Assembly: GCF_900143515.1 (NCBI RefSeq)
Contig: NZ_FSQT01000002.1
Coordinates: 4,217,501-4,281,500 of the forward strand
Direction of reading: 5' to 3'
Length of the DNA stretch: 64,000 nt
Origin: Micromonospora cremea
GTDB lineage: Bacteria; Actinomycetota; Actinomycetes; Mycobacteriales; Micromonosporaceae
Shown: positions 53,825-64,000 of the stretch, piece by piece
Layout of the letters: every line of letters begins with the position of its first letter
Numbering within the stretch: position 1 is the first letter of the stretch
The notes under the pieces: model-generated
Seen by the model: only the letters and a program-made list of their open reading frames with translations
Database searches by the model: none
Told to the model about the DNA's origin: nothing
Program-made: the position numbers and the translations under genes

Positions 53825-54877
53825 TCAGTCGGTGGCCGGGCGTACGGCGTCGAGCACCGCGTCCACGACCCGTGCCCGGCCCCGCCCGTCGACGGTGGAC
53901 CAGGCCCGCGCGGCAAGTGCCGTCCTCCGCTGCGGTGAATTGAGCAGCCCGTGCAGCGTCCGCGCGGCCGTCGCGCGGGCGGCCCGCCCGGCGACCCCGG
54001 CGCCGGTCAGCTCCGGCAGTTCGCCGAGGCCGGCGGCCACACCGTGCCGCACCACCCGGGCGTACGACTCGCGCTGGTTGTCCACCACGCAGACCAGCGC
54101 TGCGGGTGCGCCGAGGCAGCAGAGCTCCCAGGTGGACGTGCCGGCGGCGCTGACCACCAGGTCGGCCGCGGTGATCAGCGTCGGCAGCGAGCCGGTGGGC
54201 GGGACCGGTCGGAGGATCTGCCCCCGCCCGGGGGTGATCTCCTCCAGCTCCGTCTCGATCTCCGGCCGGCCGACGATGACCGTGAGGTCCATCGGATGTC
54301 CGGTGGCCAGCAGCACCCGGGTCAGCACCGGGGCCGCGCCGACGGCGTCGGTGCCGCCGAAGAAGGCCAGCACCCGGGGCCGGCTGACCGCGGTGGCGGG
54401 CCGGGGCGCCGCCGGTCGGGCGGCCACCACCGAGTCGCGCAGCAGGGCGTACCCGCTGCCGGCGAGCAGCTGTCCGGGCAGCGCCGGAGCCTGCGCCCCG
54501 AAGTTCTGATCGAGGTAGAGGTCGGCGTCCTGGCCACGGCTGTCGCCGTCGATCACGGCGAGGGTGAACACGCCGGCGGCGCGGAGCGCGCCAGCCCCGG
54601 CCGGGTCCAGCTCGTACGAGTCGAGGATCAGCACGTCCAGCTCGTGGCGGCGGGCCGCCTCGACCAGCCCGGCCGGCGAATCCGGGCCCGGATGCAGGGG
54701 GATTCCCCGCGCGGCCAGCTCCGCGGTGGCCCAGGCCAGCCGTTCGACCGCGCCGAACACCGCGACCTGGGCGCCCCGAGCCTGGAACTCCTCGGCCAGC
54801 GCCAGGCAGCGGACGAGGTGGCCGACGCCGCGCCGCGGCCCGGCGTCGCAGCGCAGTCCGACCCGTAGCGTGCTCAG
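53825..54877 (-). CDS. pseG: PseG-like nucleotide-sugar hydrolase
   Basis: The 350-residue protein is a GT-B-like hydrolase of the PseG/SpsG type. The N-terminal signature is LRCDAGPRRGVGHLVRCLAL, whose GVGH histidine corresponds to the catalytic one in PseG. The second lobe has VLAFFGGTDAVGA and VVSAAGTSTWELCCLGAP. In pseudaminic acid synthesis PseG removes UDP from the 2,4-diacetamido altropyranose. No ATG, GTG or TTG exists at a suitable place, and the best start is CTG 54877, overlapping the cytidylyltransferase stop (CTGA). The next in-frame GTG would delete the signature, so a CTG start or a sequence error must be assumed. Confidence 0.82.
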   Translation of the reverse strand: MSTLRVGLRCDAGPRRGVGHLVRCLALAEEFQARGAQVAVFGAVERLAWATAELAARGIPLHPGPDSPAGLVEAARRHELDVLILDSYELDPAGAGALRAAGVFTLAVIDGDSRGQDADLYLDQNFGAQAPALPGQLLAGSGYALLRDSVVAARPAAPRPATAVSRPRVLAFFGGTDAVGAAPVLTRVLLATGHPMDLTVIVGRPEIETELEEITPGRGQILRPVPPTGSLPTLITAADLVVSAAGTSTWELCCLGAPAALVCVVDNQRESYARVVRHGVAAGLGELPELTGAGVAGRAARATAARTLHGLLNSPQRRTALAARAWSTVDGRGRARVVDAVLDAVRPATD

Positions 54878-55734
54878 GACTCCTCCAGCCGCTTCTGCCG
54901 TACGTCGGCGTTGAGCGCGCGCAGCCGCGGCTGCCCGTCGAGCCAGTCGGCGAGCTTCGCCAGCGGCACGCTGACGTCGCCGAAGTGGTCGGTCACCGCG
55001 CGGACCAGCGCCCAGTCCTGCTCGGTGTCGAGGGTCAGCCGCAGCGGGGAGCGGTTCGGCGTGAGTGTCACCCCGAGCACCCGGAACAGCTCCGGATGGG
55101 TGTACGCGTACGAGGTCACGTGCACCCGGTGGTGACCGGTGGCGAGCCGGTCCAGGGTACGCAGCGTCTCCGCGCGGATGATCTCGACGTCCAACCCCCG
55201 GGGCAGGGTGCGGGCGATCGACGTGCTCGCGTAGTCCAGCCCCGGCACCGCCCGGTACACCGAGGCGACCAGCGTGATGATCTCCGGGTCGAGCAGTGGG
55301 CAGTCGGCGGTGAACCGCATGACCGCGTCGCCCGGGTGTGCGGCCAGCGCGCCCACGAACCGGCCCAGCACGTCGTCGACCGGCCCGCGGTGGCAGGGCA
55401 CGCCCAGCCGTGCGCACTCGGCCACGACCGCGTCGTCGGCCGCGTCCGTGCTGGTCGCGACCACCAGGTCGGCGAGGACGCCGCTGTCGCGGGCGGCGCG
55501 CACCACCCGGCCCAGCACGGAACGCCCGGCGAGCGGGCGGAGCACCTTGCCGGGCAGCCGGGACGATCCCATCCGCGCCTGCACGATGCCGACGATCCGC
55601 GGTCCACCGGCCGTGCCCGTGGCCCCCGTCAGCGCCGGGCCGTGCTCCGGTACGGCGTTGGGTGCGGCGGTCGCGCGCTCGTCGACCGGCGCCGCGCGCT
55701 CGTCGACCGGCGCCGCGCTGTCGTGACCGCTCAT
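54874..55734 (-). CDS. SpsF/PseF-like cytidylyltransferase
   Basis: The 286-residue protein has a nonconserved Pro/Ala-rich N-terminus of about 45 residues, including APVDERA repeated. A nucleotidyltransferase domain follows, with IVQARMGSSRLPGKVLRPL binding CTP, VATSTDAADDAVV and VMRFTADCPLLDPEII, whose aspartates hold Mg2+. In the pathway it would activate pseudaminic acid as the CMP-sugar. SpsF relatives activate other sugars. The stop overlaps the pseG start and the ATG overlaps the upstream stop (55731-55734), so it belongs to the operon. Family name is firm, substrate inferred. Confidence 0.82.
   Translation of the reverse strand: MSGHDSAAPVDERAAPVDERATAAPNAVPEHGPALTGATGTAGGPRIVGIVQARMGSSRLPGKVLRPLAGRSVLGRVVRAARDSGVLADLVVATSTDAADDAVVAECARLGVPCHRGPVDDVLGRFVGALAAHPGDAVMRFTADCPLLDPEIITLVASVYRAVPGLDYASTSIARTLPRGLDVEIIRAETLRTLDRLATGHHRVHVTSYAYTHPELFRVLGVTLTPNRSPLRLTLDTEQDWALVRAVTDHFGDVSVPLAKLADWLDGQPRLRALNADVRQKRLEES
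55673..55714. repeat. Tandem 21-bp repeat within the cytidylyltransferase gene
   Basis: Two identical 21-base copies (55673-55693 and 55694-55714), followed by 6 bases of a third, encode the repeated APVDERA heptad near the N-terminus. The unit keeps the frame, so copy number could vary without breaking the protein. Confidence 0.85.
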
Positions 55735-57557
55735 CGCCGCTTCTCCTGCCTCGAGGCGAGCGCCGTGCGAGCCCGGCGCTTGGCCGCCCGGGCGCCCCGC
55801 TTGACGAGCCGGGCCGGGGTGATGGCGAGTCGACCCACCCGGTAGCTGAGTGAACCGCTGAGCAGGCCGATCTTCGCCTCCGCCCGGCGCAGCGCCCGTT
55901 CCCGCGAGGTGAGCAGCTCGTCGGTCCACCTGGTCAGTGCGGTGAGCCGGCTGATCTCCTCGCGCTGGCGCAGCCACGCCTCCCGCAGCTGCTGGTAGCT
56001 GTGGGCGCCGACCGGCGGGTCGGTCGGCTCGACGGCGTGCAGCTCGGTGGCGAGGCTGACCCGGCCGTCGGTGTCCAACCCGTGCAGCGCCCCGGTGATC
56101 GCAGCCTCGGCCTCCACCGCCTGCGCCACGGTCTCCCGGTTCACGTCGTGGCCGGCGAGCCCGCCGAGCACGACGGTCAGACCCGCCACGTCCAGGGTGG
56201 ACGACCATGGGTGGGCGTACCCGCCGGTGAGCAGGCCCGCCGCGAAGCGCCACAACCCGCGCGCCAGCACCACGTCGCCGGGCAGCGCGTCGGTGGCCCG
56301 CCAGCTCGGGTCGAGCACCGCGTAACGGTCGCCGGCGACCACCACGTTGTCGGTGCTGGCCAGCGCCGCCGCGCCGGCGATCCGGCCGTCGGCGCCGGCC
56401 TGGTCGGCGAGCCAGCCCGCGTACCCCTGCAGCAGGGTGCGCAGCGCCGCGAGGTCGCGGCGCAGCGCCGCGTCGAGCAGCAGGGTACGCAGCAGCCGCC
56501 CAGCCGGCACCGGCCCGGTCAGCGCGCCCGGGTCCCGGTACGCGGCCTCGCGGCTGGCGAACGGCGGGGCGGCCAGCACGCTCGCGCCGGTCGGGGCGGC
56601 CAGGTTCCACCGCCAGCCCGAGGGACCCTCGAGCACCTCGAGCACGCCGATACCGGGTTGCCCGGTCTGCGCCAGCGCCACCGGCAGGTTGCCGTCGGTG
56701 GTCGGCTCGGCCCGGTCCTCGGAGCCAGTGGGCCGCCGGGCCAGCATCAGCCAGCCCGGCGCGAGGTCGGCGGCGCGCCCGGCGTGCAGCGCGTCCACCG
56801 CGAGCCGGGCCGGGTCCTGGAGCACCGTCCCGGTGGCGAAGCCCCCGGCGCAGGCGCCGTGCAGCACCGCGTCGAACAGTCCGGAGCCGGCGCCCCGGTC
56901 GAGCTGGTCGGCGTCGAGCAGCGCCGTCACGGTGCTGGTGTCGGGGTATCCGGCCCAGCAGGCGGTCGGCCGCAGCCCGGCGTCGGTGAGCCGCTCGCGC
57001 AGCTGGTCCCGGTTGGCGGGGCGGGCCCGGTCCAGCACCCCGTCGATCACCCAGGCAGAGTCGTCCCGGCCCGCGTACCAGGGGGTCGTGGCGACCAGCC
57101 GGTGCAGCCCGAGCGGGTTGTCCAGGCGCAGCAGCAGCGCCCCACCCGGCCGTACCGCGGCGACCAGTCGCGCCAGCACCCCGTTCCAGCCCAGCCGGGT
57201 GCCCTCCACCGACTCCACCGGGTCCAGCCCGGCGCCGGCGATCACCACGTCGTACGTTTCGTCGGTGGGCAGCCCGGCCGGGCCACCCACCACGACGCGG
57301 GTGGCCCGCTGGGCCAGCGCCACCGCGTCCGGGTGGCTGCGCAGCAGGCAGGTGACCTCGGCGTGGGCGAGTCGGTCGAGCAGCGCCGGGTCGTGCGGCC
57401 CGGCCAGCAGGACCCGGGCACCGGCCGGCACGATCCGGGCGGCCAGCGCAGCGAGGGGCCCACCGTCGGCCAACCGCGTTTCCGGCAGGTCGGACCAGGC
57501 CAGCATCTCGCCGCCCGGCAGGGTGATCCGGTCGGCGGGTGCCGTCTCAGTCGTCAC
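55731..57557 (-). CDS. 608-aa methyltransferase-like protein with C-terminal coiled coil
   Basis: The N-terminal 200 residues have a Rossmann-like pattern, including GARVLLAGPHDPALLDRLA, YDVVIAGAGLDPVES and a GGALLLRLDNPLGLH strand, suggesting a class I methyltransferase. The middle part (about 290-490) recalls aminoglycoside phosphotransferase-like folds, but the catalytic HxD is not evident. The end (about 535-608) is a coiled coil and basic helix (YQQLREAWLRQREEISRLT, then RLVKRGARAAKRR). GTG 57557 overlaps the previous gene by 11 bases. Its place in the operon implies a role in modifying or assembling the sugar product. Confidence 0.55.
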   Translation of the reverse strand: MTTETAPADRITLPGGEMLAWSDLPETRLADGGPLAALAARIVPAGARVLLAGPHDPALLDRLAHAEVTCLLRSHPDAVALAQRATRVVVGGPAGLPTDETYDVVIAGAGLDPVESVEGTRLGWNGVLARLVAAVRPGGALLLRLDNPLGLHRLVATTPWYAGRDDSAWVIDGVLDRARPANRDQLRERLTDAGLRPTACWAGYPDTSTVTALLDADQLDRGAGSGLFDAVLHGACAGGFATGTVLQDPARLAVDALHAGRAADLAPGWLMLARRPTGSEDRAEPTTDGNLPVALAQTGQPGIGVLEVLEGPSGWRWNLAAPTGASVLAAPPFASREAAYRDPGALTGPVPAGRLLRTLLLDAALRRDLAALRTLLQGYAGWLADQAGADGRIAGAAALASTDNVVVAGDRYAVLDPSWRATDALPGDVVLARGLWRFAAGLLTGGYAHPWSSTLDVAGLTVVLGGLAGHDVNRETVAQAVEAEAAITGALHGLDTDGRVSLATELHAVEPTDPPVGAHSYQQLREAWLRQREEISRLTALTRWTDELLTSRERALRRAEAKIGLLSGSLSYRVGRLAITPARLVKRGARAAKRRARTALASRQEKRR

Positions 57558-58392
57558 TGTCCTCTTCTTCCTGGAGGTTCGCCCAGCCGAGCAGCTCACG
57601 CAGCTCGCCCGGCGTGCAGCGGTGGTCGGTGCCCAGCTCGGCGCGGGCGATTCCGACCGTGGTGGGCAGGTCGACCGCGGCGCCGTGCAGCTGCGGCCAC
57701 TGCCGCCGGATGCGGGCGGTCCCGCCGAAGGTCGGGTCCTCGTTGGACAGGATCATCGGGTCGCCGTAGACCGCTGGTTCGCAGCCGGCCGCGATGCCGT
57801 AGAAGATCGCGCTGGTCAGCCGGTTGGATGCCACCCGGCGGTGCCGGCGCAGCTCGGTCAGTTGCTTGTCGAGGAACTCCGGGTCGGTGTCCTTCCACCA
57901 GTGCCCCCGGTAGCCGTGGCAGATCACCCGGAACCCGGCGCGCTCGTAGAGCCGGCGGACGTGGCGCATCCCGTACTCGTGCCAGTAGAGGCAGACCGTG
58001 ACGGGGCCGGGTTCGGTGTCCCGGATGCGGGCGATCAGCTCCCGGTGGTCACCCTTGACGTGCTGGCCCTCCCAGCCGTGGAACGGGTACCAGATGGTGC
58101 CGTCCCGCTCCTCGACCGGTGGTTCCTCGGGCCGCATGGCCAGCAGGTAGACGAACGGGGCCCCGATGACGACCACGTTGCGCCGCCCCACCGACCAGGC
58201 CCGGCGGCGGGTCTGCTCCGACCAGAGCAGGCTCGGGGTGCGATCGGCGTACGGATGGCCGGGAGCCAGGCCGTCGCCGATGTTCCAGCCGTGCTGCACG
58301 TACCCGTTGATCCGCGGCGGATGCCGGTCGCCGAGGCCGGCGTAGCGGGCCAGCACGTGCGCGTGGCCGTAGAAGTGGTTCGCGTGGTGCAT
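57547..58392 (-). CDS. Unrecognised 281-aa protein, candidate nonulosonate transferase
   Basis: The protein has no membrane segment or signal peptide. It opens MHHANHFYGHAHVLARYAGL and has INGYVQHGWNIGDGLAP, VVVIGAPFVYLLAM, TVCLYWHEYGM and SNRLTSAIFYGIAAGCEPAV, a layout of alternating strands and helices like a GT-B enzyme. The second half, with a conserved-looking ER-GC-P segment, resembles the nucleotide-binding half of polysaccharide glycosyltransferases of the sialyltransferase kind. It lies between PseC and the 608-aa protein and is the only gene in the operon left to transfer the CMP-sugar. That role is inferred, and no family was recognised. Confidence 0.55.
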   Translation of the reverse strand: MHHANHFYGHAHVLARYAGLGDRHPPRINGYVQHGWNIGDGLAPGHPYADRTPSLLWSEQTRRRAWSVGRRNVVVIGAPFVYLLAMRPEEPPVEERDGTIWYPFHGWEGQHVKGDHRELIARIRDTEPGPVTVCLYWHEYGMRHVRRLYERAGFRVICHGYRGHWWKDTDPEFLDKQLTELRRHRRVASNRLTSAIFYGIAAGCEPAVYGDPMILSNEDPTFGGTARIRRQWPQLHGAAVDLPTTVGIARAELGTDHRCTPGELRELLGWANLQEEEDSDD

Positions 58393-58402
58393 CAGGTTCC
58401 CA

Positions 58403-59560
58403 TCAGGCGGCGGAACGCACCGAGCCGGCCCGCAGGGCCGTGGCCAGGGCGTCGATGACGCGGTCCTGGTCGGCGTCGCTGAGTCCCGGGTAGAGCGGCA
58501 GCGACAATTGTTGGGAGTAGAACGACTCCGCGACCGGGCAGGATCCGCGCCGGTAGCCCAGGTCGGCGAAGGCCGGGTGCCAGTGCACCGGAATGTAGTT
58601 GACCTGGACGCCGATGCCGGCGGCGCGCATGCGGTCGTACACCTCGCGGCGGCGCCCGTCGAGCACCCGGATCGGGTAGAGGTGCCAGGCGGGTCGGGCC
58701 CAGGCCCGCCGTCCCGGGAGCCGGATGCCCGGCAGGTCGGCGAGGGCCTCGTCGTAGCGGGCCACCAGGTGATCGCGGCGGGTCAGGAACTCGCCCAGCC
58801 GGCGCAGCTGGCTGCGGCCCAGCGCGCAGAGCACGTCCGGCAGCCGGTAGTTCAGCCCGAACTCGTGCACCTCCTGGTGCCAGCCGCCCTCGTCCGGCCA
58901 GCGCTGCTCGTCGCGCTCGCGCACCACGCCGACGCCACGGAACCGGCGGGCCCGCTTGAGCAGCTCCGGGTGGGGGGAGACCACCGCGCCGCCCTCGGCG
59001 GTGGTGAGGTTCTTGGTGGGGAAGAACGACAGCGTGGTCAGATCGGCCAGCGAGCCGACCGGCCGGCCCTTGTAGCTGGCGCCGATGGAGTGCGCCGCGT
59101 CGGCGAGCAGCAGCGCGTCGTGCCCGCCCAGCGCGGCGCGTAGGGCGTCGTAGTCGGCCGGGTGGCCGGCGTAGTCGACGGCGGACACCACTCGGGTACG
59201 CGAGGTGGTCCCGGCGGCGGCCGCCGCCGGGTCGAGGGTGAAGGTGTCCTCCTCGACGTCGGCGAAGACGACCTTCGCGCCGAGCGCGACGGCGCTGCTG
59301 GCGGTCGCCACGAAGGTCATCGGCGGCACGATCACCTCGTCGCCGGGGCCGACGCCGGCCGCCGCGTACGCCACGTGCAGCGCCGCGGTGCCGTTGGAGA
59401 CGGTGGCGCAGCCCGCGCCACCGGTCCAAGCGGCCAGGTCGGCCTCGAACGCCTCGACCTGCGGCCCGGTGGTGAGCCAGTCGCCGCGCAGCACGCCGGC
59501 CACCGCGGCGATGTCGTCCTCGGTGACCGAGTGCCGGCCGTACGGAAGCATTGCCGTCAT
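58403..59560 (-). CDS. pseC: PseC: UDP-4-keto-sugar aminotransferase
   Basis: The 385-residue protein is a DegT/DnrJ/EryC1/StrS-type aminotransferase. The PLP-binding lysine is Lys183 in FFPTKNLTTAEGG, the same position as Lys183 of Helicobacter PseC. VSNGTAALHVAYAAAG, DEVIVPPMTF and VNYIPVHWHPAFADLGY are also present. It converts the 4-keto product of PseB into the 4-amino altrosamine using glutamate as amino donor. ATG 59560 overlaps the pseB stop (ATGA), and a second ATG at 59551 would drop only three residues. It acts after PseB and before PseH. Confidence 0.9.
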   Translation of the reverse strand: MTAMLPYGRHSVTEDDIAAVAGVLRGDWLTTGPQVEAFEADLAAWTGGAGCATVSNGTAALHVAYAAAGVGPGDEVIVPPMTFVATASSAVALGAKVVFADVEEDTFTLDPAAAAAGTTSRTRVVSAVDYAGHPADYDALRAALGGHDALLLADAAHSIGASYKGRPVGSLADLTTLSFFPTKNLTTAEGGAVVSPHPELLKRARRFRGVGVVRERDEQRWPDEGGWHQEVHEFGLNYRLPDVLCALGRSQLRRLGEFLTRRDHLVARYDEALADLPGIRLPGRRAWARPAWHLYPIRVLDGRRREVYDRMRAAGIGVQVNYIPVHWHPAFADLGYRRGSCPVAESFYSQQLSLPLYPGLSDADQDRVIDALATALRAGSVRSAA

Positions 59561-60540
59561 GCGGTGATGCCGAGCATGTCGCGTAGCTCCTCGACGCTGA
59601 GCCACTCGTCGTTGGTGTCCGACTGGTACGCGAAGCCGTCCGGCACCGGCTCGCAGTCGACCGGCGGGTGGTAGCCCCAGCCGGCGATGGTCGGCTGGAC
59701 GATGTACCGGTCCTTGGCGCGCAGCGTCCGCCGGCTGTCGTCCGGCGCGATCATCTCCTCGTGCAGCTTCTCGCCGGGCCGGATACCGATCTCGTGCGTG
59801 GTGGCGTCCGGTGCGACGGCTCCGACCAGGTCGAGGATGCGCATGCTGGGGATCCGCGGTACGAACAGCTCGCCGCCCTGCATCTGGTCGAACGAGTCCA
59901 CGACGAACTGCACGGCCTGCTCCAGCGTGATCCAGAACCGGGTCATCCGCATGTCGGTGATCGGCAGGCTCTTGCCCTCGGCGGCCAGCCGGCTGAACAG
60001 CGGGACCACGGAGCCACGGCTGCCCACCACGTTGCCGTAGCGGACCACCGAGAACCGGGTCGGGTGGTGGGCCGCGTAGTGGTTGGCCGAGACGAACAGC
60101 TTGTCGCCGACCAGCTTGGTCGCGCCGTACAGGTTGATCGGGCTCGACGCCTTGTCGGTCGAGAGCGCGATGACCTTCCGGACGCCGGCCTCGATCGCGG
60201 CGTCGACGACGTGCTGGGAGCCGGTGATGTTGGTGGCGATGTACTCGGAGGGGTTGTACTCCGCGGTGTCCACCTGCTTGAGGGCGGCGGCGTGCACCAC
60301 GTGGTCCACGCCGTGCATCGCCCGGGTGAGGCGGTGCCGGTCCCGGATGTCGCCGATGAACCAGCGCAGCCGGGAGTCGTCGCCGAGCTGCTGGCGTAGC
60401 TCGTACTGCTTGAGTTCGTCGCGGGAGAACACCACCACCCGGGCGGGGTCGGCCTCGGTGAGGATGTGCCGGAGGAACGCCCTGCCGAAGGAACCCGTTC
60501 CCCCGGTGATCAGAATGGACGATCCATTCAACTCACTCAA
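59557..60540 (-). CDS. pseB: PseB: UDP-N-acetylglucosamine 4,6-dehydratase (inverting)
   Basis: The 327-residue protein is an extended SDR of the FlaA1/PseB class. The cofactor loop is GGTGSFG (residues 13-19). The catalytic set Asp129-Lys130 (STDKASSP) and Tyr138 with Lys142 (YGATK) has the spacing of Helicobacter FlaA1. It dehydrates UDP-GlcNAc and inverts C5, the first step of pseudaminic acid synthesis. The start is TTG 60540, 7 bases after GGGAG. Longer frames lack a site. It heads the operon pseB-pseC-281 aa-608 aa-cytidylyltransferase-pseG. Confidence 0.92.
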   Translation of the reverse strand: MSELNGSSILITGGTGSFGRAFLRHILTEADPARVVVFSRDELKQYELRQQLGDDSRLRWFIGDIRDRHRLTRAMHGVDHVVHAAALKQVDTAEYNPSEYIATNITGSQHVVDAAIEAGVRKVIALSTDKASSPINLYGATKLVGDKLFVSANHYAAHHPTRFSVVRYGNVVGSRGSVVPLFSRLAAEGKSLPITDMRMTRFWITLEQAVQFVVDSFDQMQGGELFVPRIPSMRILDLVGAVAPDATTHEIGIRPGEKLHEEMIAPDDSRRTLRAKDRYIVQPTIAGWGYHPPVDCEPVPDGFAYQSDTNDEWLSVEELRDMLGITA

Positions 60541-60904
60541 TTTGGTTCTCCCGTGATCGTGGATGAACGGGCGGCCCTCGGCCGGCCGACCGGGGTGAGA
60601 CGCTAACCGTGGCGGGTTAACGGGCCGGCGTTCGCGGGTGAACCGGTCGCCCTGCTCCCGTGAATGCCAGGCACCGGGTAGGCGAACACTTGCGGCCATC
60701 CGGGAAGCGGCCTGACCAGGCCGGATCGGGCCGTTACAGTGGCCGCGCGAGCGACCCGGCCGCCTCTGTGCGCCGCCGGTTCCCGCGTTCACCCGACGTT
60801 CGTGCCGCCGTGGCGCGAGCGTTTCGCCCTGCGCGTCACCGGCCGCACCGGCGTGCCCACACGCCCGCGCGGGCCCGGACCGGTCGGCAATTCAGGAGGC
60901 GTTG
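60541..60904. other. Divergent promoter region, 364 bases
   Basis: The gap separates pseB and the GT-C gene, which are transcribed outwards. It contains the plus-strand promoter listed separately. On the minus strand a TTAACCCGCCACGGTTAGCG stretch near 60610 could be the -10 region for pseB. No conserved reading frame is seen. Confidence 0.55.
60712..60740 (+). promoter_or_regulatory. Sigma-70-type promoter of the GT-C gene
   Basis: CTGACC (60712-60717) and TACAGT (60735-60740) are 17 bases apart, the standard spacing. The start would lie near 60747, leaving a leader of about 158 bases before ATG 60905. Confidence 0.6.
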
Positions 60905-62638
60905 ATGGCATCCGGCAGCGACGTGATGGAACGGCCGGCGGTCCCGGTCGAGACACCGCCTGTCGCACCCGCGCGGCGCTGGCTGGTGCCGCTGCTGCTG
61001 CTCGTCGGATGGGTGCTCGGCGTCGCCTGGCGGATGTGGCTGTCCCGGCACATCGGGCTGCCGATCGCGCACACCGACGAGGACAGCTACCTGAACACCG
61101 CCCGTGCGCTGGCCGGCGGGCCGGGTGGGTTCAGCAGCGAGAACGACCTGCTGCGCCGGGTCGGTTACCCGATGCTGATCTCGCCGGCGTTCCTCGGGGA
61201 CCGGGATTTCACCGACAGCTACCGCCTGGTCCAGCTGATCAACGCGATGGTGAACTCGGCGCTGTTGCCGCTGGCGTACCTGCTCGGGCGGCGGCTGCTC
61301 CAGCTGCGCCGGTCGTATGCCCTGCTCGGGGCCGTGGTGGCGGCGACCCTGCCGGCGACCGCCTTCTACGCCGGCGTCGCCATGATCGACACGGTGATGG
61401 CGCCGCTGGTGATCGCCTGGCTGCTGGCGGTGCACCGCTGGATCGAGCGGCCCGGCCCGCTCGCCGCGGCCACCGTCGGCCTGCTGGTCGGCGCGTTCCA
61501 CCTGCTGCACTCCCGCGGCCTGGTGATCGTGGCGGTGCACGCCGGGCTGGTCCTGCTGCTGCTGGTCCGTCGCCGGATCACTCCGGCCGGGGTGCTCGCG
61601 GCGCTGCTGCCGGTGCTCGCCCTGGTGCTGGCCAACGAGGCCGTCATCCGGCTGCTCGGGAACAAGGTCTACCTGCTCGGCAGCACCCCGGGCGGCAGCA
61701 TGGTCGAGGCGGTCGCCTCCGGCCCGGGTGTGGTCCGCGTCGGCGCCGCTGTCGCCACCCAGCTCTGGTACCTCGTGGTGATCACGTTCGGGATGGCCGG
61801 GGTGGCCTGGGCCGCCGCCGTCCGGGAGCTGTGGCGTCCCCGCAGCGGTGACGCCACCCGCTGGACGATGGGCGTGGCGCTGGTGGTGAGCGTCGGGGTG
61901 GCCAGCGGCGCGTCGGTGATCCTGGCCGGCATCACCGGCAAGCCGCTGGACGCGATCTACGGCCGCTACGTGCAGATGCTGGCGCCGTTCTGGCTGCTCG
62001 TCGGGCTCGGGGTGCTGCTCACCGCCGGGCGCCGGGTGTTGCTGCGCCGTGCGGCCGTCGCGACGGCCCTGCTCGTCGCGGGCGGCGCGCTGATCGCCGT
62101 CCGGTTGGCGTACGTGGCCAGCCGGGGGCACTCGCTGCGCTACGGCGGCTTCGGCGCGCCGGACCTGATGGCGCTGACCGGCGGTTGGCAGGAGATGCGG
62201 CCGGTGGTCGGGTCGCTGGTCGGCGTCGCCGCGTGCCTGCTGCTCGTCGCGGCGGCGCAGGTGCCCCGGCTGCGGCTGCCACTGCTCGGCGCCCTCGTCG
62301 TGGTCAACCTCGTCACCATGCAGGTGATCGATCAGCGGCTGGTGCGGCCGATGGCCGCGAGCAGCGCGCCGACCCCACGGGTGGCCGACCTCGGGGTGCG
62401 TCCCGGCGAGCAGGTGTGGTCCTCCACCGGCGTGCACTACATCCTGCGGCTCAACCTCAGTCATCAGGTGACCTGGACCGACGTGCGGTGGTTCCGCGAG
62501 CAGCCGCCGGCCGCGGCGCAGGTGGTCTTCACCCGGTGGGCGCCCGGCGAACCCGACGACTGGGACGGCGCGAAGTACGGCTTCGTCCGGCTGGGCGGCA
62601 ACGCGGACCAGCACTGGGCGGCCTGGCGGCGGGCCTGA
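60905..62638 (+). CDS. GT-C family membrane glycosyltransferase (GT39/ArnT-like)
   Basis: The 577-residue protein has about ten to twelve membrane helices and, in the first outer loop, HTDEDSYLNTARAL, the acidic pair expected for polyprenyl-phosphate-dependent GT-C enzymes (PMT, ArnT). The last 100 residues form an outer soluble domain. Such enzymes move a sugar from a lipid carrier onto a protein or glycolipid outside the membrane. AGGAGG lies 5 bases before ATG 60905, and a TTG three bases earlier is less likely. Its place between PseB and PseH suggests that it acts on the same surface glycan. Confidence 0.7.
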   Translation: MASGSDVMERPAVPVETPPVAPARRWLVPLLLLVGWVLGVAWRMWLSRHIGLPIAHTDEDSYLNTARALAGGPGGFSSENDLLRRVGYPMLISPAFLGDRDFTDSYRLVQLINAMVNSALLPLAYLLGRRLLQLRRSYALLGAVVAATLPATAFYAGVAMIDTVMAPLVIAWLLAVHRWIERPGPLAAATVGLLVGAFHLLHSRGLVIVAVHAGLVLLLLVRRRITPAGVLAALLPVLALVLANEAVIRLLGNKVYLLGSTPGGSMVEAVASGPGVVRVGAAVATQLWYLVVITFGMAGVAWAAAVRELWRPRSGDATRWTMGVALVVSVGVASGASVILAGITGKPLDAIYGRYVQMLAPFWLLVGLGVLLTAGRRVLLRRAAVATALLVAGGALIAVRLAYVASRGHSLRYGGFGAPDLMALTGGWQEMRPVVGSLVGVAACLLLVAAAQVPRLRLPLLGALVVVNLVTMQVIDQRLVRPMAASSAPTPRVADLGVRPGEQVWSSTGVHYILRLNLSHQVTWTDVRWFREQPPAAAQVVFTRWAPGEPDDWDGAKYGFVRLGGNADQHWAAWRRA

Positions 62639-62651
62639 CCCGCGCCGCCCC

Positions 62652-62700
62652 GCGTCCGGTGGACATCAATTTTCGTAAACGGGGGATGTCCACCGGACGC
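62652..62700. terminator. Perfect 16-bp inverted repeat, probable bidirectional terminator
   Basis: Arms 62652-62667 and 62685-62700 match over all 16 bases and flank a 17-base AT-richer loop. The element lies in the 108-base gap between the convergent GT-C and PseH-like genes. Confidence 0.7.
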
Positions 62701-62746
62701 ACGGGCGGTTAATGGTGTCGGGCCATTGCGGAATGCGCGCCGGCCA

Positions 62747-63283
62747 TCAGCGCCGGCGGCGGTCCTGCCGGCGCAGGGAAATGGGGATGACGGTGATTTC
62801 CCGACCGTCGGACATCTCCTGTCGCGGAGTGCCCTCGACGAATCGGAAACGCCGGTTCATCTGCCGTACGACGGTGTTGTGCGCGAGCACCTCCCCGTCG
62901 AGCCGGTCCAGATGCAGCCCGTCGAAGGCGTACTCGACGGCCTCCCGCATGACCGCCAGCCAGGCGGGCAGTGTCTCGTCCCGCCCGGCCAGACCCTCGG
63001 CGTCCAGATAGAAGCCCAAGGCGCCGGTCCGGGGCTCGTCCAACCTCAGGTCGAAGAAGGTGACCACACCGCAGGGCCGGTCGTCGCGGACGTACACCAG
63101 CACCCGCCGGGACGGGTCGTTCCGCACCGCCGACCACCACCGGGCGTGCTCGTCGGCGGTGATGTCGTGACGAGTCTTGCTGACCTGACGATTGGTTTCC
63201 TGATTACGCCAGGACAACATCAGGTGAACATCGTCCACCGTCGCTTCGCGCAGCACGTACCTCTCGCTTTCCTGACTGTTCAC
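62747..63283 (-). CDS. pseH: PseH-like GNAT N-acetyltransferase
   Basis: The 178-residue protein is a RimJ/RimL-type GNAT, the size of PseH. Visible are the first strand YVLREATVDDVHLMLSWRNQ, the acetyl-CoA loop region near RDETLPAWLAVM and the LDRLDGEVLAHNTVVRQMNR segment ahead of the last strand (RFRFVEG). In the pathway PseH acetylates the 4-amino group made by PseC. GTG 63283 fits the family start, since upstream codons are basic and unconserved. The assignment depends partly on the neighbouring pse genes, and a related acyl transfer using ACP is possible. Confidence 0.78.
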   Translation of the reverse strand: MNSQESERYVLREATVDDVHLMLSWRNQETNRQVSKTRHDITADEHARWWSAVRNDPSRRVLVYVRDDRPCGVVTFFDLRLDEPRTGALGFYLDAEGLAGRDETLPAWLAVMREAVEYAFDGLHLDRLDGEVLAHNTVVRQMNRRFRFVEGTPRQEMSDGREITVIPISLRRQDRRRR

Positions 63284-63343
63284 GTCCGGTCCCGGAACCC
63301 TACCCGGACGTACCGGGAAATCAGATATCCATTCGTTGGGCTG

Positions 63344-63349
63344 TAGACT
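63344..63349 (+). promoter_or_regulatory. -10 box of a leaderless promoter
   Basis: TAGACT lies 7 bases before the ATG at 63357 of the acyl carrier protein gene, with no ribosome binding site. Confidence 0.6.
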
Positions 63350-63356
63350 CCGACGC

Positions 63357-63608
63357 ATGAACGAATTGAGTCGCGCGCAGATTCGCGACCTCATGGCTCA
63401 GGTGTTGAAGAACCAGGACAAGGAGCTGCCGGCGCACGACGCTGCGCAGCTGCGGGAGATCGGCTTCCGGTCGCTGGACTTCTCCGAGCTGGCCCTGCGG
63501 GTGGAGGACGAGACGGGGGAGGAGCTCAACTTCGACGCCCCCGGCCTGCGCCGCATCGCCACCGTCGGCGACGTCCTCGACTTCCTCGTCGAGCTTCAGC
63601 GGCAGTGA
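63357..63608 (+). CDS. Acyl carrier protein
   Basis: The 83-residue protein is an acyl carrier protein. The phosphopantetheine-accepting serine is Ser39 in EIGFRSLDFSELALRVE, where FRSLDFSE replaces the usual DSLD. The helical acidic surface of helices 2 and 3 is retained (VEDETGEEL). It would carry an acyl group as a thioester. It is divergent from the PseH-like gene and its stop overlaps the AMP-ligase start, so the two form a loading pair. It is a dedicated, pathway-specific ACP rather than the fatty-acid one, by context. Confidence 0.85.
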   Translation: MNELSRAQIRDLMAQVLKNQDKELPAHDAAQLREIGFRSLDFSELALRVEDETGEELNFDAPGLRRIATVGDVLDFLVELQRQ

Positions 63609-64000
63609 CCAGCGCGACAGCTCACCCCCGGGGCGCCGGGTATCCGGAACCGGCCGGCGTCGACAACCGGCTCGTCGTCGGGGGCGCCGCGCTGACCTGG
63701 CGGGCGCTGCCGACACCGGCGTTGCCCGATCCCGCCGCGGTGCTCGCGCACTCCGCCGGGCACGCGCTCGCCGCCGCGCGGCAGCACGCGGTGTACGGCA
63801 CCGAGCTGTTGCTCAGCACCGCGAGCCGGGTCGACGCGGCGATGCGCGCGGAGCTGCTGGACGCCGGGTTCACCGTGACGGTCCTCGACGACGACGGCGT
63901 GCACCCGAGCGCACCGCCTCGGCCGCGAGCCGCCGAACCCGGCCGGCTCTGGCTGCTGACGTCCGGCTCGACCGGCCGCCCCAAGCGCGTGGGGCACACC
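63605..64000 (+). CDS. AMP-dependent ligase (acyl-ACP synthetase-like), truncated by window end
   Basis: The first 132 residues of an adenylate-forming enzyme are present. The LWLLTSGSTGRPKRVGHT segment near residue 120 is the P-loop motif (T-S-G-T-T-G-x-P-K) of the superfamily. The preceding 100 residues are shorter than in typical acyl-CoA ligases, so the N-terminal domain is reduced. GTG 63605 overlaps the ACP stop (GTGA). It should activate a carboxylic acid and load it on the ACP encoded just before it. The remainder lies beyond base 64000. Confidence 0.8.
   Translation, partial: MTSATAHPRGAGYPEPAGVDNRLVVGGAALTWRALPTPALPDPAAVLAHSAGHALAAARQHAVYGTELLLSTASRVDAAMRAELLDAGFTVTVLDDDGVHPSAPPRPRAAEPGRLWLLTSGSTGRPKRVGHT

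Follow-up and report, generated by a model that had tools for sequence, protein, structure and literature searches.

The stretch examined here, referred to as the window, comprises 64,000 nucleotides of the Micromonospora cremea genome (G000:C2:4217501-4281500; the genome spans 7.76 Mb in two contigs); it was read together with the next 40 kb of the same contig, and coordinates follow the window numbering, continued past 64000 where marked as extended (Table 1). By the sequences of its genes, the locus that runs across the window end is predicted to be one for the biosynthesis of pseudaminic acid (Pse), with PseB, PseC, a PseG-like protein, a CMP-sugar synthase and PseI. Set among these genes is a group of five, here called module A or the cassette, for a PseH-like protein (PseH'), an acyl carrier protein (ACP), a short AMP-ligase, a FabG-like short-chain dehydrogenase/reductase (SDR) and a small protein resembling phosphopantetheinyl transferases (PPTases); together they form a self-contained kit that appears to charge the carrier with an unusual acyl group and pass it on to Pse. 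A preliminary description of the window had placed PseB, PseC, PseH-like, PseG and PseF/SpsF-like proteins, the ACP and the AMP-ligase here, and profile searches agree with it; to the right of position 64000, where it had suggested looking for the rest of the ligase, PseI and an acyltransferase, the ligase is completed and PseI and an Acyl_transf_3 gene follow. Further to that description are two conserved genes within the window, for the protein D281 and a 608-aa protein, and two just outside it, for the SDR and the PPTase-like protein.

Table 1. Features of the Pse locus and its downstream region.
Feature	Position	Strand	Basis or remark
PseG-like UDP-sugar hydrolase	53825-54862	-	TIGR03590 136 bits vs cut-off 153.6
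CMP-sugar synthase (PseF/SpsF-like)	54874-55734	-	PF02348 90.6 bits; TIGR03584 (PseF) 31 vs 206
608-aa protein	55731-57557	-	no Pfam family; kept in Pse loci with and without module A
D281, GT-B-fold protein	57547-58392	-	structure model; candidate Pse transferase
PseC aminotransferase	58403-59560	-	TIGR03588 397.5 bits vs cut-off 423.5; best-scoring family
PseB 4,6-dehydratase	59557-60552	-	TIGR03589 493 bits, cut-off 408
Hydrophobic protein (earlier label GT-C)	60902-62638	+	no Pfam match; tentative label from hydrophobic sequence
PseH' (PseH-like GNAT)	62747-63283	-	TIGR03585 73 bits vs cut-off 93
Module A ACP	63357-63608	+	PF00550 26.5 vs cut-off 20.8
Short AMP-ligase, 427 aa	63605-64888 (extended; crosses window end 64000)	+	PF00501 and PF13193 above cut-off
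FabG-like SDR	64881-65636 (extended)	+	TIGR01830 172 bits vs 298
Small PPTase-like protein	65620-66069 (extended)	+	Sfp-type motifs
PseI	66382-67434 (extended)	-	TIGR03586 455 bits vs cut-off 340
GT2	67568-68740 (extended)	-	PF00535
Acyl_transf_3 gene	68935-70290 (extended)	+	
Wall-teichoic-type genes (two TagF-like, IspD-SDR fusion, ABC transporter pair)	75624-85806 (extended)		PF04464, PF01128, PF00005, PF01061

PseB and PseI score above the curated cut-offs of their equivalog models, PseI being the sole NeuB-family match in the genome; the PseC, PseG and PseH models are the best families for their genes, yet all remain below the curated cut-off. The CMP-sugar synthase matches the cytidylyltransferase family, although the PseF model is so weak (31 of 206 bits) that its exact sugar is left unsettled; it is 40% identical to the gene that follows pseI in Azospirillum. 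The starts of the ligase, SDR and PPTase-like genes each overlap the end of the preceding gene, and the PseH' and ACP genes are divergent, with 73 bp between them.

The distribution of the cassette was followed in a survey of 300 genomes of the family, in which its ligase (ligase A) was called at E <= 1e-20 (56 genomes) and PseI at E <= 1e-60 (136 genomes). Both occur in 55 genomes, ligase A alone in 1, PseI alone in 81 and neither in 163; the lone genome with ligase A and no PseI (G255) is a fragmented assembly. The two genes share a contig in 51 of the 55, always with a gap of 1.0-5.5 kb, and lie on different contigs in the other 4. This co-occurrence and tight linkage assign the pair of ACP and ligase to the Pse locus, as had been supposed. 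The competing origin named at the time, an unrelated polyketide synthase or nonribosomal peptide synthetase (NRPS) cluster beyond the window, was rejected: of the seven ketoacyl-synt matches (E <= 0.001), those on this contig are over 0.5 Mb distant and the rest are on the second contig, and the gene content disagrees, the next genes being those for the SDR, the PPTase-like protein, PseI, GT2 and the acyltransferase. It is likewise highly improbable that the cassette makes an unrelated small molecule and stands here by chance; one locus (L138) does carry it away from PseI, which lies elsewhere in that genome, but the co-occurrence in 55 of 56 genomes, the tight linkage, a PseH clade of its own and the exclusion with a second module, both described below, all speak against chance. 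Among 396 genomes of the phylum, ligase A was found in three (E <= 1e-50), two of them the window's genome and a congener.

For comparison at the level of the locus, 82 cassette loci (76 distinct) were assembled, from 20 of the 56 ligase-A genomes, picked for spread, and from 62 of the 77 loci of a wider collection scan, whose 14 weak ligase matches (L145-L158) and one Chthoniobacterales locus (L144) were kept out. The holders are mainly Micromonospora/Verrucosispora and Kribbella (15), with an Actinoplanes, Marmoricola metagenome-assembled genomes (MAGs), Nocardioides, Actinophytocola and an unclassified actinobacterial MAG besides. One genome in the genus group of the window shares an identical ligase stretch with Micromonospora halophytica (L048 and L097). 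The SDR is present in 81 loci, the ACP in 80, PseH' in 79, PseI in 73 and the PPTase in 64; the hydrophobic protein is found in only 48 and is thus not part of the core. On one Marmoricola MAG contig (L143:10001-10840) the sequence ends inside a cassette-type ligase with no ACP upstream, which may be a mis-assembly or a rearranged module.

The catalytic residues are conserved: the serine of the ACP lies in the motif GFRSLDFSEL, invariant in 59 rows, all 80 aligned ligase rows (one locus present twice) keep the C-terminal lysine K424, and the catalytic set N-S-Y-K of the SDR is invariant in 82. Module A thereby brings together, in adjacent genes, a carrier with its phosphopantetheine serine, an AMP-ligase with its C-terminal lysine and an N-S-Y-K ketoreductase, the parts of an acyl donor module. 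Sfp-type PPTases are marked by a metal-binding D-x-E and a W-xxx-E-xxx-K motif; both are invariant in 24 rows of the PPTase-like protein. PseH' matches the solved PseH structure 4xpk (E 9.5e-7).

Of the 81 genomes with PseI only, 20 were fetched, including all 14 of the window's genus. PseB, PseC, D281 and the 608-aa gene are retained in the 14 loci, with identities of 59-93%, and the PseH beside PseI is a different one (41-48% identical to the window's). That such sister loci have no ACP module at all proved wrong: queries with the window genes had missed or weakly matched it, and gene calling between PseI and PseB, together with Pfam, revealed a second set, module B, consisting of an ACP (PF00550), an SDR, an AMP-ligase (PF00501), LuxE (PF04443) and LuxC (PF05893). 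It resembles module A in having ACP, SDR and AMP-ligase at the Pse locus; its ligase is 28% identical to that of the window, its ACP has no detectable similarity to the window ACP at the thresholds used, it is without a PPTase match, and it goes together with the other type of PseH and PseI. Of the 20 stretches fetched, 8 hold it whole and 2 in part (one of these at the edge), 2 have just an ACP or an ACP and SDR piece left, and 8 lack it. It adjoins PseI and PseB in 7 of the 14 loci of the genus (for example L068:11030-15680); other loci noted are L063, L065, L070, L073-L075, L079 and L176-L187. Correspondingly, LuxE lies 1.3-1.4 kb from PseI in 7 of these 14 genomes and 20-26 kb away in the other 7, where all module B genes are present beside DegT-like, dehydratase-like and TagF-like genes. 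Remnants were seen in the gap between PseI and PseB in two genomes that hold a full module B elsewhere, an ACP alone (L062:10588-10824) and an ACP with an SDR piece (L069, from 10495); module B also occurs in some genomes without any PseI.

The two modules exclude each other. No match to the module B ACP, ligase, LuxE or LuxC was found in 83 cassette loci (the 82 and L144), and LuxE at E <= 1e-50, found in 97 of the 300 surveyed genomes, is present in 80 of the 81 with PseI only and in 17 that lack PseI, and in none of the 56 that have ligase A. Of the 136 PseI genomes, 135 thus carry either ligase A (55) or LuxE (80), and none carries both; the remaining one (G030), with neither marker, has a PseI match below its cut-off.

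The module segregates with the type of PseH and PseI. In the PseH tree, into which identical rows were entered once and from which L059, L083, L084, L088 and L098 (fragments of 3-6 residues) were left out, a single branch splits 63 cassette rows from 19 others (support 99/96; 98% of 200 bootstrap trees). Followed within the genus, the label of the cassette changes once on the trees of PseH and of PseI, twice on those of GT2 and PseG, three times for PseB and PseF, four times for PseC and the 608-aa gene and six times for D281, with just 7 non-cassette rows in the PseG and PseF trees; PseH and PseI thus show the fewest changes, so that what was exchanged is PseH-PseI together with the module, the other genes of the locus having been shuffled; for PseI, adjacency by itself could be the explanation. 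The two PseH types differ almost completely at 13 positions; a loop difference marking ACP use was sought between these GNAT (GCN5-related N-acetyltransferase) proteins and none was seen, and the TIGR03585 score failed as a discriminator of the types.

The family of module A predates the locus. Adjacent genes for a related ligase (about 36-41% identity) and SDR (41-46%) are present in 14 plasmid records. Each of the 12 Azospirillum records (L162, L165-L175) has the gene order pseI, CMP-synthase, ACP, alpha/beta hydrolase, ACP, ligase, SDR, β-ketoacyl-ACP synthase III (KAS III) and flagellin. This cluster resembles module A in its ligase and SDR, which are homologous (at about 40% and about 45%) and lie next to pseI, but has two ACPs, an alpha/beta hydrolase, KAS III, no annotated PPTase and a flagellar context; the flagellar glycan of A. 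brasilense Sp7 is listed without Pse in the accessible part of PMC3958885, which is of no help to the reading proposed below. Upstream of the Azospirillum pseI region (L162:330-4006), a second KAS III, SRPBCC and SDR genes lie beside a PseH-like GNAT (TIGR03585 67 vs 93 bits). In Qingshengfaniella and Haematobacter, the ACP-ligase-SDR set follows a gene annotated as an acyltransferase (of hexapeptide type in Haematobacter, whose ligase, 625 aa long as annotated, is rich in repeats in its N-terminal part); the order acyltransferase-ACP-ligase-SDR was noted on the alphaproteobacterial plasmids L163:8961-11696 and L164:8265-11737. The Azospirillum and Rhodobacterales ACPs have no BLAST-detectable similarity to the window ACP. 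A Chthoniobacterales MAG (L144:8880-14161), in whose genome no PseI match was found, has the set beside FdtA, a DegT aminotransferase and a hexapeptide transferase, for which the best NCBIfam model, well below its cut-off, is the acyl-ACP enzyme LpxA; this is apparently a pathway for an N-acylated 3-amino sugar. Its ligase occurs in one of 288 genomes of its phylum, its own, and retrieves mostly unnamed proteins, whereas a search with the Azospirillum ligase gives mainly Azospirillum among the best 120 listed. The common denominator of these sets is an acyltransferase with ACP, ligase and ketoreductase.

The reading we favour, with a probability of roughly 0.68, is a Pse pathway in which a dedicated acyl-ACP supplies the N-acyl group added at the PseH step. 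PseH is known to depend on acetyl-CoA, and the standard pathway has the same PseB, C, H, G and I set as the locus; here, we infer, PseH' uses the acyl-ACP instead. The PPTase would convert the ACP to holo-ACP and the AMP-ligase would adenylate a short carboxylic acid and load it onto the carrier, where reduction of a 3-oxo group by the SDR would leave the ACP with a short hydroxyacyl group, in the likeliest case 3-hydroxybutyryl derived from acetoacetate. PseH' would then transfer this hydroxyacyl group to the 4-amino nitrogen of the sugar made by PseC; as N-4 of the UDP-sugar becomes N-7 of Pse, the action of PseG, PseI and the CMP-synthase would yield CMP-Pse5Ac7(hydroxyacyl), from which a glycosyltransferase would add Pse to a wall polymer. 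A candidate for this last step is D281, which is conserved in loci carrying either module and models as a GT-B fold; TagF and sugar 2-epimerases are its tied best matches in the fold list, and the GT-B fold alone is therefore claimed, neither a TagF-like nor a 2-epimerase-like function.

Finding module B in the sister loci lowered our estimate for this reading from 0.72 to its present value. The same finding raised somewhat the standing of an explanation that we nonetheless consider unlikely, namely that the acyl-ACP serves another part of the polymer, as an O-acyl group or on another amino sugar, and merely travels with the Pse locus. The locus does contain an Acyl_transf_3 enzyme and glycosyltransferases, ACP-ligase-SDR sets stand beside non-Pse acyltransferase genes in L144, L163 and L164, and in 7 genomes module B and PseI are 20-26 kb apart; but the Acyl_transf_3 gene is also present in 10 of the 14 loci of the same genus without the cassette, and the acyltransferase that tracks the cassette, and adjoins the ACP in the window, is PseH'.

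As to the acyl group of the favoured pathway, KAS III in Azospirillum and the FabG-like SDR indicate a 3-oxo/3-hydroxy pair, for which acetoacetyl/3-hydroxybutyryl is our first choice, at a little under even odds; a dihydroxybutanoyl group, as in tetronate, comes second and is improbable by comparison. By sequence, the solved proteins closest to the ligase are adenylation domains of NRPSs and aryl or malonyl ligases, which, with the teichoic-type genes downstream, lends something to a Dlt- or NRPS-like module, where the carrier would be charged by the ligase with an amino acid and Pse would become N-aminoacylated through PseH'. We regard this as quite unlikely, since an aminoacyl group misfits both the SDR (81 of 82 loci, catalytic set invariant) and the KAS III of Azospirillum; neither DltB, of the MBOAT family, nor DltD was found beside the ligase and carrier, whose adjacent genes encode the GNAT, the SDR, the PPTase-like protein and PseI, and no MBOAT match was found in the subset of genes further out that was scanned.

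In Aeromonas flagellar islands, according to the accessible part of PMC7874193, the genes downstream of pseH include those for an ACP, a 3-oxoacyl-ACP reductase and an AMP-dependent synthetase, and LuxE and LuxC are present as well; enterobacterial flagellar islands list similar genes, which the portion available of PMC4875605 does not state to be beside pseH. The Aeromonas Group II islands (A. piscicola AH-3) are like module A in joining ACP, reductase and AMP-synthetase to pse genes and in an unusual Pse mass, and differ in having LuxE and LuxC, in serving a Gram-negative flagellin glycan and in the authors' reading of fatty-acid channelling (PMC7874193, in part); because of LuxE and LuxC, their content, the sole basis of this comparison, matches module B and not module A. 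The preliminary description, which knew of no described pathway with exactly this set, was right only in part: an ACP module near pseH had already been published, with a set other than that of the window. The authors of both papers, in the parts seen, suggest a fatty-acyl or fatty-aldehyde module making a liposugar for such ACP/reductase/ligase/LuxE/LuxC sets, which in this family correspond to module B; for module A this is very unlikely, as LuxE and LuxC were not found in the 83 cassette loci and no evidence of a long chain was found. The AH-3 Pse derivative of 376.14 Da, accompanied by a further terminal unit of 102 Da (PMC7874193, in part), fits short hydroxy acids, though the AH-3 island is itself like module B. 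Both masses fit a dihydroxybutanoyl-type group, among other combinations: the computed mass of Pse with acetyl and dihydroxybutyryl is 376.148, with an increment of 102.03 for dihydroxybutyryl, and propionyl with glyceroyl, glycolyl with 3-hydroxybutyryl, or two lactyl groups give the same 376.148. By the same computation, the residue mass is 316.127 for Pse5Ac7Ac and 360.153 for Pse5Ac7(3-hydroxybutyryl). The fit is at best arithmetic on module B and no identification.

A carrier and ligase for the acyl group of an amino sugar are likewise already in print: in Vibrio cholerae O1, RfbK is the carrier and RfbL/WbeL the ligase proposed to activate a hydroxy acid, as bound to either CoA or a carrier protein, for perosamine N-acylation (PMC12208996, PMC3441752, both in part), with another sugar and other partner genes than in module A, to which they are likened here by description only. 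Module A and its PPTase, the mutual exclusion of the two modules, the switch in PseH and PseI type and the Actinomycetota wall setting were not found in the literature searched. It is tentatively, with less confidence than we give the choice of acyl pair, that we extend the favoured pathway to a general scheme: Pse-producing Micromonosporaceae would always hold one of two mutually exclusive acyl-ACP modules, of which module A would belong to a portable short-ligase/SDR/ACP donor family for amino sugars in several phyla and would go with an acyl-ACP-dependent PseH class with its own PseI type and placing a hydroxyacyl group on N-7 of Pse, and sister species would alter their surface chemistry by swapping PseH-PseI with the module.

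A surface glycan without flagella had been proposed for the locus. No Flagellin_N match was found in the genome (E <= 0.001; 4 of 14 control genomes match), and a flagellar role here was rejected on this ground; with the teichoic-acid-type genes downstream, this points to a wall glycan. Actinomycete teichulosonic acids are nonulosonate wall polymers, and Kribbella is described with teichuronic or teichulosonic acid; the teichulosonic structure described, from S. coelicolor, contains Kdn, not Pse (PMC6113628 and PMC7831098, accessible parts). No paper was found that places Pse in the walls of Micromonospora, Actinoplanes or Kribbella or describes an ACP-dependent PseH, a weak negative, with subscription journals scarcely covered.

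To our knowledge, the source of unusual nonulosonate N-acyl groups is largely unassigned; a compact module of linked genes that has PseH and PseI types of its own, and for which close relatives have a different module, makes such a source directly testable. Natural module A and module B species can be compared for wall Pse mass, in Micromonospora and in the Kribbella VKM strains with module A, the described wall acids making named Kribbella strains a natural test ground; if true, the scheme would offer a rule by which the acyl groups of surface glycans could be predicted from a genome.

Two further features of the region may be recorded. Between the convergent PPTase-like and PseI genes lies a perfect 16-bp tandem array, 6.4 copies of CGACAGGGCGCGCCCA, at 66206-66308 (extended; L010:7706-7808). 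The IspD-SDR fusion (77355-78800, extended) resembles a joined TarI/TarJ for ribitol phosphate and adjoins the TagF-like and ABC genes.

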